Below, piece after piece: positions 20,660 to 25,148 of a stretch of DNA of 64,000 bases. This stretch comes from Chloroflexus sp. Y-396-1 (GTDB lineage Bacteria; Chloroflexota; Chloroflexia; Chloroflexales; Chloroflexaceae). Within the stretch, counting starts at the first letter, position 1; every line of letters begins with the position of its first letter. The DNA lies in contig NZ_KI911784.1 in the NCBI RefSeq assembly GCF_000516515.1, forward strand, positions 930,001 through 994,000. Reading direction: 5' to 3'. The position numbers were made by a program, and so were the translations under genes. The notes beneath the pieces were generated by a model, which made no database searches, was not told the origin of the DNA, and saw only the letters and a program-made list of their open reading frames with translations.

Positions 20660-21370
20660 CTAGCGTGTTGCTACTGTGTCGGTATCGTAGCGATGGTGCG
20701 GCACTAATCCCCAGTCACTAAATGGAAAATAGATGAGCCAGGCCTGCCCAACGACCCGATCGAGTGGTAATGCATCCCATTCACGTGAATCTGAACTGTT
20801 ACCACGATTGTCACCCATCACAAAAATACTTCCGGGTGGCACCACTACCGGTCCTTGAGCACAGCGATAGCCGCTGAGGCAGTAGGTTGAAGCACCGCGC
20901 AGGTACGGTTCATCGAGAAGTTCGCCATTGATGTAAACCCTTCCTTCTCGTATCTCGATTACATCGCCTGGTAAACCGATGACCCGTTTGATATAATCTT
21001 TTCGCACATCGCGGGGATACTCAAAGACAACAATATCGCCGCGCTGCGGTGGACGAAAGGGATATACGATCCGTGGCGGTAAATCAGCTTGGCCGGGGAG
21101 CAAGCGCAGGGGTGCGTTCAGGTCGAAATGAAAGTAGATGAGCTTGTTCACTAAAATATACTGACCGGTGTGCAGCGTTGGCTCCATACTTGAGCCTTCA
21201 ATTTTGAAATTTTGTACGACACCGCGCACGATCAAAAAAACGAGCAAAATAAAAACGGCGGTCTCTAGAAGTTCACGTACTACGTAACGAATGGGAGTAC
21301 GGGGCTGACGTACCGACACTGCTTCCAGGTCGGTCGTTAGCGGTTCTGAGGATGGAGGACTATCGTTCAT
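20660..21370 (-). CDS. lepB: Signal peptidase I
   Basis: Membrane serine protease that removes signal peptides from exported proteins. The 236-residue protein has one N-terminal membrane helix (about 35-52, TAVFILLVFLIVRGVV), then box B with catalytic Ser61 (GSSMEPTL), box D with Lys128 (DYIKRVIGLPGD) and box E (MGDNRGNSSDSR). It is the short, single-helix form common in Gram-positives and Chloroflexota. It is divergent from the radical-SAM-like gene, with about 165 bases between. Confidence 0.95.
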   Translation of the reverse strand: MNDSPPSSEPLTTDLEAVSVRQPRTPIRYVVRELLETAVFILLVFLIVRGVVQNFKIEGSSMEPTLHTGQYILVNKLIYFHFDLNAPLRLLPGQADLPPRIVYPFRPPQRGDIVVFEYPRDVRKDYIKRVIGLPGDVIEIREGRVYINGELLDEPYLRGASTYCLSGYRCAQGPVVVPPGSIFVMGDNRGNSSDSREWDALPLDRVVGQAWLIYFPFSDWGLVPHHRYDTDTVATR

Positions 21371-21535
21371 AGCACCATATTGCGCGCTCTATGTTACACT
21401 AAGACATAGCGCACGATAAGAGATAGTACACGGAGGGAATCTTTCCCTCCGCCACTTCTGGCATTATACTCGAAGATATGGCAAATTGCCAGTAGGAAGA
21501 CGTGACGGCAGAGCAGTAAGAGGGGCAAAGAGGAT

Positions 21536-22537
21536 ATGTCATCGCTGGCTACATTAGCACAGCCACTTGCCGACAATACGTATCAGTGTCTTGCTTGCCA
21601 GTGGCGTTGTACGTTGGCGCCAGGTGAGACTGGCCGCTGTCAGATGCGGATCGGTCGGGCCGAAGGGATCGAGCTGCTGAATCACGGGCTGATTAGCGGC
21701 GCTGCTATTGGCCCGATTGAAGATTATCGGCTCTGGCATTTTTTTCCTGATACGACTGTGCTGGCAATCGGGGGTTGGGGGTATGCACTGCCACTCGATC
21801 AGCAGCGGGGACCTTACGGTGCACTACCAACCGATCCATCGAAGCAGCGGCGGCTTGACCCGCAGCGGGCTGCTGATTTCGCACTTGAGCGACTTTGTCG
21901 AGGGGTGGTATGGGCATTTGCTGAGCCGGCGGTGAACTTTGAATACCTGTTGGCCCTGCTTCAATTGAGCCGCGCCGCCAGCCGCTATACAGCCATTGTT
22001 ACGAGTGGCATGCTCAGTTTAGAAGCATTGAGTGAACTCGGCCCATATCTGAATGGCATTAGTCTCGATCTGCGAGGCTTCTCAGATCACGCTTATCACC
22101 GATTAGGAGGTATCAGCGAGTGGCGCCAGATTTTACGTTTCGCGGAAGAGGCGCAGCATCGCTGGAAGTGTCACGTTGAGATTACCACTCGTATTCATCA
22201 TGGGGTCAACGATCATCCCGATGAACTGCGCGATCTGGTCGAGTGGATTAAGTCGACTCTCGGTGAAGCGACGCCGTGGCACGTGTTACCAGGTGATGCC
22301 GGTAGCGAAACAGCCGCCGCGACGATGCGAGCGCGTCGGATTGGGCACGAGGGTGGATTGCAGTTTATTTATGGTCACGAGGCTAATCAGGCCACTCGTT
22401 GCCCAATGTGCCATGCGACTCTTATAGAGCGTCAGCACGGGGGGAGCCGGAAAGTTGGGCTTGATGGTAGTCGCTGCCGTCATTGTGGCTATGCCACAAA
22501 TATGTATCTGTCGATTTTCAAAGTGCACCGCACCTGA
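21536..22537 (+). CDS. AmrS-like radical-SAM relative lacking the cluster cysteines
   Basis: A 333-residue protein aligned by eye to the AmrS/PflA-like radical SAM enzymes of the AmmeMemoRadiSam group. It keeps the N-terminal cysteine set (Cys18, 21, 25, 35 in CLACQWRCTLAPGETGRC), the middle signatures AFAEPAVNFEY, TSGMLSLEALSELGPYLNG and ISLDLRGFSDHAYHRLGG, and a C-terminal CPMC...CRHCG ribbon. Where active relatives have GCNxRCxxC, this protein reads GYALPLDQQ, so the three cluster cysteines are Tyr83, Leu87 and Gln90. It therefore should not bind the SAM-activating 4Fe-4S cluster. Function unknown; it leads a unit with a U32 gene and an M29-like gene. Family call is firm, role open. Confidence 0.8.
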   Translation: MSSLATLAQPLADNTYQCLACQWRCTLAPGETGRCQMRIGRAEGIELLNHGLISGAAIGPIEDYRLWHFFPDTTVLAIGGWGYALPLDQQRGPYGALPTDPSKQRRLDPQRAADFALERLCRGVVWAFAEPAVNFEYLLALLQLSRAASRYTAIVTSGMLSLEALSELGPYLNGISLDLRGFSDHAYHRLGGISEWRQILRFAEEAQHRWKCHVEITTRIHHGVNDHPDELRDLVEWIKSTLGEATPWHVLPGDAGSETAAATMRARRIGHEGGLQFIYGHEANQATRCPMCHATLIERQHGGSRKVGLDGSRCRHCGYATNMYLSIFKVHRT

Positions 22538-22646
22538 AATCTGATGGCTACCTTTGGTGTGGAAAGCAACGATTATGCACAATCGTTTCGTCGGCGACGG
22601 TTTGCAGGTGCTTGAACAAAAACAGCCTACAGAAGTGAGCAGGAAT

Positions 22647-25148
22647 ATGCGCAAACCCGAAATTATGAGCCCTGCCGGTTATTGGCCGCAACTGCACGCC
22701 GCCATCGAAGCCGGAGCAGATGCAGTCTATTTTGGGCTTACCCATTTTACGGCACGGGCTAAGGTGGGGTTTAGCCTGAGTGAGCTGCCAGAGGTGATGA
22801 AGACGCTCCATCGGCGGGGAGTGAAGGGGTATGTGACGTTCAACACGCTGGTGTTTGATCATGAACTACGAGCAGCGGCCACGGCACTGGCCGAGATTGC
22901 CGCCGCTGGCGCCGATGCGATTATTGTGCAAGACCTTGGCGTAGCAGCGCTGGCTCACCGCATCGTGCCTGATCTCCCGATCCACGGCAGTACGCAGATG
23001 AGTATTACCAGCGCCGAGGGCGTCATCCTTGCCGCACGCTACGGGGTTGCGCGTGTGGTTTTGGCCCGCGAGCTGTCTCTGGCGGACGTGGCGGCTATTC
23101 GAGCACGGAGTCCGATTGAGCTAGAGATGTTTGTGCACGGCGCACTCTGTGTGTCGTATTCCGGCCAGTGCTTTTCTTCGGAGGCATGGGGTGGGCGAAG
23201 TGCGAATCGCGGTCAGTGTGCGCAGGCTTGCCGGCTGCCTTACGACTTAATCGTTGATGGACGGCATCGTCCATTAGGTGCTGCCCGCTATCTCCTTTCG
23301 CCGGGTGATCTGGCGGCTATTGACGACATGGCGACAATTGCTCGCCTCGGTGTTAGCGCACTTAAAATCGAAGGGCGCTACAAAGATGCTGAGTATGTGG
23401 CGATTACGACCCACATGTACCGGCGTGCGCTCGATGCAGCCTGGGCTGGTTTGTCGCCCGATCTGACTATCTCCGACCGTCTGCACCTCGAACAAGTCTA
23501 TTCACGTGGGTTAGGACCACACTTCCTTCACGGGACGAATCATCAGGCAGTCGTTGCCGGCCGGGCGCCTCGCCATCGTGGATTACTGATGGGGCGCGTC
23601 GCTCGAGTACGTCCTGATGTTATCATTATTGAGCCTGAACCAGGTCGTGAGGCAGCGCCGCTTAAACCTGGCGATGGGGTTGTGTTTGATGCAGCCGACT
23701 GGCGTAGCCCCGAAGAACCAGAAGAAGGTGGACGAATCGCGGCCGTTGAAACGGTAGGCGACGGTTTGCTGGCTATCCGATTTGTCAAAGGTGCGATCAA
23801 TCCACGTCGTATTCGGGTTGGGGATCTGCTCTGGCGTACTTCCGATCCGAACACAGAGCGTATGGCCCGCCCTTTCGTGCAACCAGCCGCACCGGTACGT
23901 CGTCAGCCGGTGCGCGTCGACGTACAAGCGCGTGTTGGGAGCGCCCTTGAACTACGTTGGACGCTGATCGAACGGCCGGTGTTGAGCGTGACCGTGCGCA
24001 GCGAGTCGCCTTTAACGCCAGCCCAACATCGCCCACTCAACGAGCCAATGCTTCGTGAACAGTTGGGTCGGTTAGGTGATACTCCCTACTTGCTGGCTGA
24101 ATTGACTGCCCAGATTGAGGGGAATCCCTTTGTACCGGTATCGCTGCTTAATCAATTACGACGTCAGGCGACAACAGCGCTGGCAGAATTACAGGGGCAA
24201 CAACCAACATACACGATCCGTGAACCAGGGCAGGTGTTAGACGAACTGCTTACGGCTGTCACCCCGACAGCACCCGCTGATGTTCTTCATTTGCACCTCT
24301 TAGTTCGCTCTCCTGAACAACTGGCGGCAGCGATTGCACTGCGTCCGGCCAGTATTACGCTCGATTATCTTGATCTTGAAGGATTGAAGCCAGCACTGGC
24401 CCAGATTCGTGATGCTGGTATTCCGGCCCGAATTGCAGCACCACGCATTCTCAAGCCGGAAGATGAGCGGGTAGTACGGTTTCTGCGCAAACTAAACGCT
24501 CCCCTGCTGGTACGTTCAACCGGTCTGCTCGAGCTGCTGCGTGATGATCCTGCGCTCGAACTCACCGGTGATTTCAGTCTGAATGCGGCTAACGTCCTCA
24601 CGGCCGATCTGTTACTGGGCCTGGGATTAAAACGCTTGACCCCAACCCACGACCTCAACGCTGAACAGATTGCTCATCTGGCCGAGCGGATTGGCGGCAG
24701 TCGTATTGAAGTCATTGCCTACCACCATCTGCCGGTCTTTCATACAGAACACTGTGTGTTCTGTCGTTTTCTGTCGACCGGCACCAGCTACAAGGATTGT
24801 GGGCGTCCGTGTGAACGGCATCGTGTGGCACTCCGTGATACGGTGGGACGTGTCCATCCGGTGATTGCCGATGTCGGTTGTCGCAATACGGTGTTTGGTG
24901 CTGAAGCCCAGGAAGCGAGTAAGTATATTGATCGTTGGCGTGCTGTCGGTATTACCCATTACCGGCTAGAATTTGTACACGAATCGGCTGAGGACGTGAT
25001 GGCGGTGAGTGAAGCATTTCTTGCCTATCTTCACAACGACATCAGTGCTACTGAGTTAGGGCGCCGCTTGCGTCAGTGTGCGCCGCAGGGGGTAACCGAA
25101 GGGAGCTTCTTCGTGCCACCAAACTATCAGTACATTCCACTACTGTAA
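22647..25148 (+). CDS. Large U32-family protein (RlhA-like, Fe-S)
   Basis: An 833-residue U32 family member. Family members once called peptidases are now known in several cases (RlhA, TrhP, UbiU/UbiV) to be Fe-S proteins that hydroxylate rRNA, tRNA or a quinone precursor. The N-terminal barrel begins MRKPEIMSPAGYWPQL; the U32 signature is EMFVHGALCVSYSGQCFSS, with Cys168, Cys175, Cys191 and Cys195 as candidate cluster ligands. The second half is a long DUF3656-like region ending with CVFCRF, DCGRPCERH and DVGCRN. The ATG at 22647 precedes conserved sequence and has AGGA upstream. Length and layout fit RlhA (23S rRNA hydroxylation) best; the substrate is inferred only. It ends 10 bases before the M29-like gene. 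Confidence 0.85.
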   Translation: MRKPEIMSPAGYWPQLHAAIEAGADAVYFGLTHFTARAKVGFSLSELPEVMKTLHRRGVKGYVTFNTLVFDHELRAAATALAEIAAAGADAIIVQDLGVAALAHRIVPDLPIHGSTQMSITSAEGVILAARYGVARVVLARELSLADVAAIRARSPIELEMFVHGALCVSYSGQCFSSEAWGGRSANRGQCAQACRLPYDLIVDGRHRPLGAARYLLSPGDLAAIDDMATIARLGVSALKIEGRYKDAEYVAITTHMYRRALDAAWAGLSPDLTISDRLHLEQVYSRGLGPHFLHGTNHQAVVAGRAPRHRGLLMGRVARVRPDVIIIEPEPGREAAPLKPGDGVVFDAADWRSPEEPEEGGRIAAVETVGDGLLAIRFVKGAINPRRIRVGDLLWRTSDPNTERMARPFVQPAAPVRRQPVRVDVQARVGSALELRWTLIERPVLSVTVRSESPLTPAQHRPLNEPMLREQLGRLGDTPYLLAELTAQIEGNPFVPVSLLNQLRRQATTALAELQGQQPTYTIREPGQVLDELLTAVTPTAPADVLHLHLLVRSPEQLAAAIALRPASITLDYLDLEGLKPALAQIRDAGIPARIAAPRILKPEDERVVRFLRKLNAPLLVRSTGLLELLRDDPALELTGDFSLNAANVLTADLLLGLGLKRLTPTHDLNAEQIAHLAERIGGSRIEVIAYHHLPVFHTEHCVFCRFLSTGTSYKDCGRPCERHRVALRDTVGRVHPVIADVGCRNTVFGAEAQEASKYIDRWRAVGITHYRLEFVHESAEDVMAVSEAFLAYLHNDISATELGRRLRQCAPQGVTEGSFFVPPNYQYIPLL

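Follow-up and report, generated by a model that had tools for sequence, protein, structure and literature searches.

What work is left for a radical-SAM protein whose cluster cysteines have gone? The question is raised by a 64,000-nucleotide stretch of the Chloroflexus sp. Y-396-1 genome (here called the window), in which an unbroken open reading frame on the plus strand, positions 21536–22537, encodes a protein of 333 amino acids. An earlier note on this DNA had claimed that the protein keeps an AmrS-type backbone and both outer cysteine ribbons, that its Fe-S cysteines are lost, and that this suggests a new, non-radical role rather than decay. The first of these claims is borne out by a match to TIGR04337 (AmmeMemoRadiSam radical SAM enzyme) covering residues 10–321 (E 6.2e-40) and by alignment of all eight outer cysteines. 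The match scores 137.1 bits, below the curated cut-off of 220, and by score alone the protein falls outside AmrS. To judge from these comparisons it is a diverged AmrS homologue; together with the predicted structure described below, they would make it an AmrS-derived pseudo-radical-SAM protein.

The CxxxCxxC motif is the mark of the radical SAM superfamily, and the window protein lacks it. Its loop reads GGWGYALPLDQQRG, with Y83, L87 and Q90, the very residues named in the earlier note, at the three cluster-cysteine positions. Alignment and the AlphaFold2 model place the former cluster loop at residues 79–98 (GGWGYALPLDQQRGPYGALP; 21770–21829, plus strand), and the Pfam Radical_SAM match (E 3.1e-8) is restricted to residues 102–234, starting past this loop. 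We aligned 117 homologues, 58 with an intact CxxxCxxC and 59 without it (hereafter Cys-less); two of the latter were assigned by hand, L044 for a single cysteine immediately ahead of the loop and L194 for one at column 87. Most homologues were found with the window protein or with profile A1, a bias toward Cys-less relatives. L061 was omitted because its aligned part is too short, and loci L067–L149 stand outside the alignment, the tree and the neighbour and residue counts (L073–L102 repeat included places and L103–L149 are named contigs). The three cluster columns are cysteine in 58/58 intact homologues, whereas among the Cys-less proteins cysteine occurs at column 83 in 0/59, at column 87 in 1/59 (L194) and at column 90 in 0/59. 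The loop is strongly unlike that of AmrS, as it would be if an alignment artefact had hidden cluster cysteines lying elsewhere. The chance of this is virtually nil: C-x(2,3)-C is absent from residues 40–285 in all 59 Cys-less homologues, and among the basal Cys-less loops (GGYGLNFP, GGYGANFP, GGYGQNFP, GGWGNNLAC and GSSGGNAHS) the first, third and fourth still align with GxWGCNFHC.

The outer cysteines have had the opposite fate. Those of the N-terminal ribbon (C18, C21, C25 and C35; residues 18–35, 21587–21640, plus strand) are kept in 59/59 Cys-less and 58/58 intact homologues, and those of the C-terminal ribbon-like region (C289, C292, C314 and C317; residues 289–317, 22400–22486, plus strand) in 58/59 Cys-less homologues, the exception, L028, being cut short. 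Both regions were delimited from the family alignment, and the window protein thus carries the N- and C-terminal cysteine ribbons of AmrS. The claim of lost Fe-S cysteines therefore holds for the radical-SAM cluster; for the N-terminal C-x2-C-x3-C-x9-C ribbon the sequence is silent on zinc versus another Fe-S cluster. Parts of the C-terminal ribbon weakly resemble zinc-ribbon profiles (E about 0.04–0.6, below cut-offs).

The loss extends past the cluster, since other residues conserved in intact AmrS are gone too. K64 and P65 are each kept in 1/59 Cys-less homologues and K180 and F253 in 0/59, against 58/58, 58/58, 58/58 and 56/58 of the intact set, and the intact-type residues Q91, N92 and P255 remain in just 4, 2 and 6 of the 59. 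Residues 127–132 (AFAEPA; 21914–21931, plus strand) are a remnant of the strand that carries the GEP-type motif of radical-SAM enzymes, a motif with a role in SAM binding. Residue 130 is E in 41/59 and D in 18/59 Cys-less homologues and P131 is found in 58/59, so that binding of SAM or of a nucleotide is still conceivable. One might then suppose that redox or radical chemistry persists through an Fe-S cluster which the outer cysteines would hold, SAM being bound by other means, and the conservation of all eight of these cysteines as well as of E/D130 and P131 is in keeping with this idea. We consider it quite improbable, however, given the loss of K180 and K64 and the weak resemblance of parts of the C-terminal ribbon to zinc ribbons; moreover, the same eight cysteines accompany CxxxCxxC in intact homologues, which argues that they are no replacement for it.

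The loss is real, but it is a trait of a whole clade rather than a peculiarity of the window gene. In a tree built without the loop columns from 86 of the 117 rows (rows at least 78% identical to a kept row were removed), 35 non-redundant Cys-less rows are split from 51 intact rows at 100/100, and the intact CxxxCxxC homologues in the tree lie beyond this branch. Orthologues across the clade share the same loss, and none of its members examined has an intact CxxxCxxC or another cysteine triad. One change explains the loss, as it does in 200/200 bootstrap trees examined; the Cys-less proteins are a clade of single origin. Branching among the basal groups has weak support (93/74, 91/22) and the root is a midpoint root; long branches (L058, L059) and odd composition (L158, L170, L175, L178, L186) were flagged. 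In this tree the point at which the clade attaches to the intact homologues is provisional, and we take the loss as the derived state because CxxxCxxC marks the superfamily.

The Cys-less form spans seven family-level groups of one class: 52 of the 59 homologues belong to families f1–f4 of the window genome's order and seven to f8, f91 and f93 of the same class. The window protein finds matches in 54 of 61 genomes (G052 and G060 through an intact homologue only), and 13 of the 61 hold both a Cys-less gene and an intact AmrS. At class level 70/158 genomes match at E 1e-20, intact homologues counted, and of 40 places examined among phylum-wide matches outside the order, 39 are intact and one is Cys-less. 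A scan of 84,980 species, one genome each, with two family peptide patterns yielded 47 confirmed loci, whose records bear the name of Chloroflexota or of one of its members, L147 alone being titled only 'bacterium'; these patterns are blind to the basal groups and to independent losses elsewhere. The gene is absent from 11/11 listed genomes (1.7–3.6 Mb, some incomplete) of genus g21 in family f4.

Such absences bear on whether the gene is simply decaying or a pseudogene. Besides the lost catalytic residues and the several genomes without the gene, two irregular copies could be read that way: the G013 copy (contig C54, L028) runs across two frames, owing either to a frameshift or to an error in the assembly, and in G029 (contig C528, L061) a second copy stands beside a full one and has an N-terminal part that cannot be aligned with the family. 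Decay is nonetheless highly improbable, being largely refuted by dN/dS values of 0.025–0.061 within the window's genus (17 of 21 pairs; four pairs gave no dS), rough values given that most dS exceed 1. The gene is under strong purifying selection in this genus. Identity of the window protein to four congeners, 83–89%, is comparable with 87–89% for lepB and 84–90% for the U32 gene, its neighbours, and an internal stop in three more matches proved to be their own C-terminal stop.

Pooled pN/pS is 0.054/0.719 in the former cluster loop and 0.073/0.656 in the rest of the gene; ranked among windows of 20 residues, the loop is only above average in conservation (rank 92 of 309). Across 43 sequences of f1 and f4 there is no variation at G79, W81, G82, Y83, R91 and P98, while D88 and Y94 each reach 98%. 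Three of these are not new, since W81, G79 and G82 also occur in 22, 47 and 57 of the 58 intact relatives, whereas Y83, R91 and Y94 occur in 0/58 and D88 in 3/58. The former cluster loop thus bears a new conserved motif in two families, f1 and f4. The new loop residues are not common to f2, f3 and the basal groups, which argues against a single new pocket throughout the clade. Elsewhere in the protein, S149 and R150 are found in 52/59 Cys-less and 0/58 intact homologues, R105 and R122 in 59/59 Cys-less and also in 15/58 and 22/58 intact homologues, and H68 in 59/59 Cys-less homologues.

The predicted structure of the window protein retains the radical-SAM barrel fold. The AlphaFold2 model has a pLDDT of 94.7, with block means of 94 and 92 over residues 81–100, and the former loop forms a helix at 86–91. 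In an intact relative modelled likewise the loop block means are 63 and 63, a weak contrast because that model is cluster-free and was built on a shallower alignment (25 versus 34 rows). The solved structure closest to either model is that of PflA; for the window protein the superposition gives Z 19.8 over 216 aligned residues with an rmsd of 2.8 and 16% identity. A sequence search of solved structures with the window protein gave one match, at chance level (E 0.57).

The main rival to a binding or scaffold role is a new non-radical enzyme, a remodelled barrel performing acid-base or nucleotide chemistry through D88, Y83, H68, E215 and conserved arginines. The new conserved polar residues in the former active-site loop of f1 and f4, the purifying selection in the genus and the universal H68 all fit such an enzyme. 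Even so we hold it to be unlikely: Pfam and NCBIfam profile searches of the window protein returned no non-radical enzyme family over cut-off, the nearest being an enolase C-terminal profile at E 0.063, and f2, f3 and the basal groups carry few of the new loop residues, which leaves no evident catalytic set common to the clade.

The explanation we prefer, with a probability of roughly 0.6, is that the gene encodes a radical-SAM pseudoenzyme of single origin that now serves as a non-radical scaffold or ligand-binding protein. Strong selection on a gene whose cluster cysteines are gone and whose other cysteines are kept probably signifies a new non-radical job, perhaps that of a binding or regulatory protein. 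The earlier proposal of a new role rather than decay thus gains support from the single origin, the retention in seven groups, the purifying selection, the further residue losses and the new motif of f1 and f4. The pseudoenzyme would have arisen in a setting of Memo, AMMECR1 and AmrS, and we infer that a Cys-less protein could not cleave SAM reductively. Families f1 and f4 would have rebuilt the loop that once held the cluster around Y83, D88, R91 and Y94, and S149 and R150 would have been gained by the whole order; the remodelled pocket may hold a small anionic ligand or a stretch of another protein, with the cysteine ribbons serving folding or partner contacts. In other lineages the gene stands beside AMMECR1, Memo or a Ser/Thr kinase; in the window's genus, where no such partner was found, the protein would act alone.

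Among known systems, AmrS of the Memo–AMMECR1 system (TIGR04337) is like the window protein in its homology over residues 10–321, in both ribbons and, for some relatives, in adjoining AMMECR1 or Memo genes; it is unlike it in having the cluster cysteines, K64, P65, K180 and F253, and in scoring above the family cut-off. PflA and other glycyl-radical activases offer the closest solved fold, but the identity in the structural alignment is low, the window protein lacks their CxxxCxxC, and NCBIfam profiles of these activases match it from residue 121 on, far below cut-offs. Pfam searches of six neighbouring genes in the window revealed no glycyl-radical enzyme. Among kinases and proteases, pseudoenzymes shared by a whole lineage are familiar, and in eukaryotic Dph1–Dph2 a radical-SAM-type subunit has kept its fold and given up part of its catalytic role; that pair belongs to a different family, however, and a partner relation of the Cys-less protein is putative. 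The parts of the open-access literature covered by our search hold no report of a pseudoenzyme in the AmrS family.

The immediate neighbours of the gene are signal peptidase I (LepB; Peptidase_S26 by Pfam), divergently transcribed upstream (20660–21370, minus strand), and a downstream gene of the U32 peptidase family with DUF3656 (22554–25148, plus strand; by Pfam, run on the part from 22674 on). Promoter-like and terminator-like sites in 21300–22700 are near chance in number (2 vs 1.0 and 1 vs 0.8). A divergent upstream LepB is found at 50/59 Cys-less loci and at 0/58 intact loci, three of which have fewer than 500 bases upstream; by family the counts are 32/34 in f1, 3/3 in f2, 3/6 in f3, 9/9 in f4, 1/5 in f8, 1/1 in f91 and 1/1 in f93. 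We did not adopt this pairing as a functional link, since head-to-head pairs can persist without shared function, and a link to the U32 gene was dropped because that gene lies downstream in only 4/47 named loci, those with proteins 83–86% identical to the window protein.

Links to the Memo–AMMECR1 system appear in other lineages. In the 26 closest intact loci Memo and/or AMMECR1 lies downstream in 24, fused in L152. AMMECR1 directly follows the Cys-less gene in 9/9 genomes of f3 (Herpetosiphonaceae), with gaps of 4–132 bases in the six loci measured, and our search did not find Memo in eight of these nine. Memo follows the Cys-less gene in L194, a basal genome that also holds intact homologues. 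Overall Memo is present in 9 and AMMECR1 in 10 of the 61 genomes. Searches of the genome to which the window belongs turned up neither Memo nor AMMECR1 nor a second AmrS, so that no sign was seen there of the co-encoded Memo and AMMECR1 that characterise AmrS, and contact with these two proteins cannot be the present role there. A Ser/Thr kinase gene lies downstream of the Cys-less gene in 5/5 f8 loci and in the single loci of f91 and f93 (1/1 each). As a side observation, this kinase carries a beta-propeller in all three families (PQQ-type in f8: L170, L190–L193), and the gene after it falls into one similarity group in 4/5 f8 loci, one member being a PP2C phosphatase by Pfam.

A more specific form of the scaffold reading is possible and we put it forward tentatively: the emptied cluster pocket would bind a ligand, and the protein, as a sensor or scaffold acting with AMMECR1, Memo or the kinase, would form a non-radical Memo–AMMECR1 branch. 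We know of no established reaction for AmrS, nor of a radical partner for the Memo and AMMECR1 proteins that animals keep. A natural variant that would be free of radical chemistry, and that in some genomes still stands beside AMMECR1 or Memo, offers a direct means of telling which functions depend on such chemistry, and if the sensor or scaffold reading is true, proteins of the Memo–AMMECR1 pathway can work without it. The primary molecular function of MEMO1 remains unknown according to a 2024 paper (PMC11081632).

Two minor observations concern other genes downstream. Counting loci with at least 2500 downstream bases, LplA and/or gcv genes (gcvT, H, P) follow the Cys-less gene in 3/3 f2 loci (L044–L046), 5/5 f3 loci (L038, L039, L040, L042, L043), 3/8 f4 loci (L034, L199, L200) and 0/3 f1 loci. 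We rejected a link to glycine cleavage or lipoate as an explanation and retain it as a side observation. In f3, AMMECR1 reads LRGSV in two of six loci (L038:5974–6501 and L041:1602–2216), a Cys-to-Ser change, and LRGCV or LRGCI in the other four.
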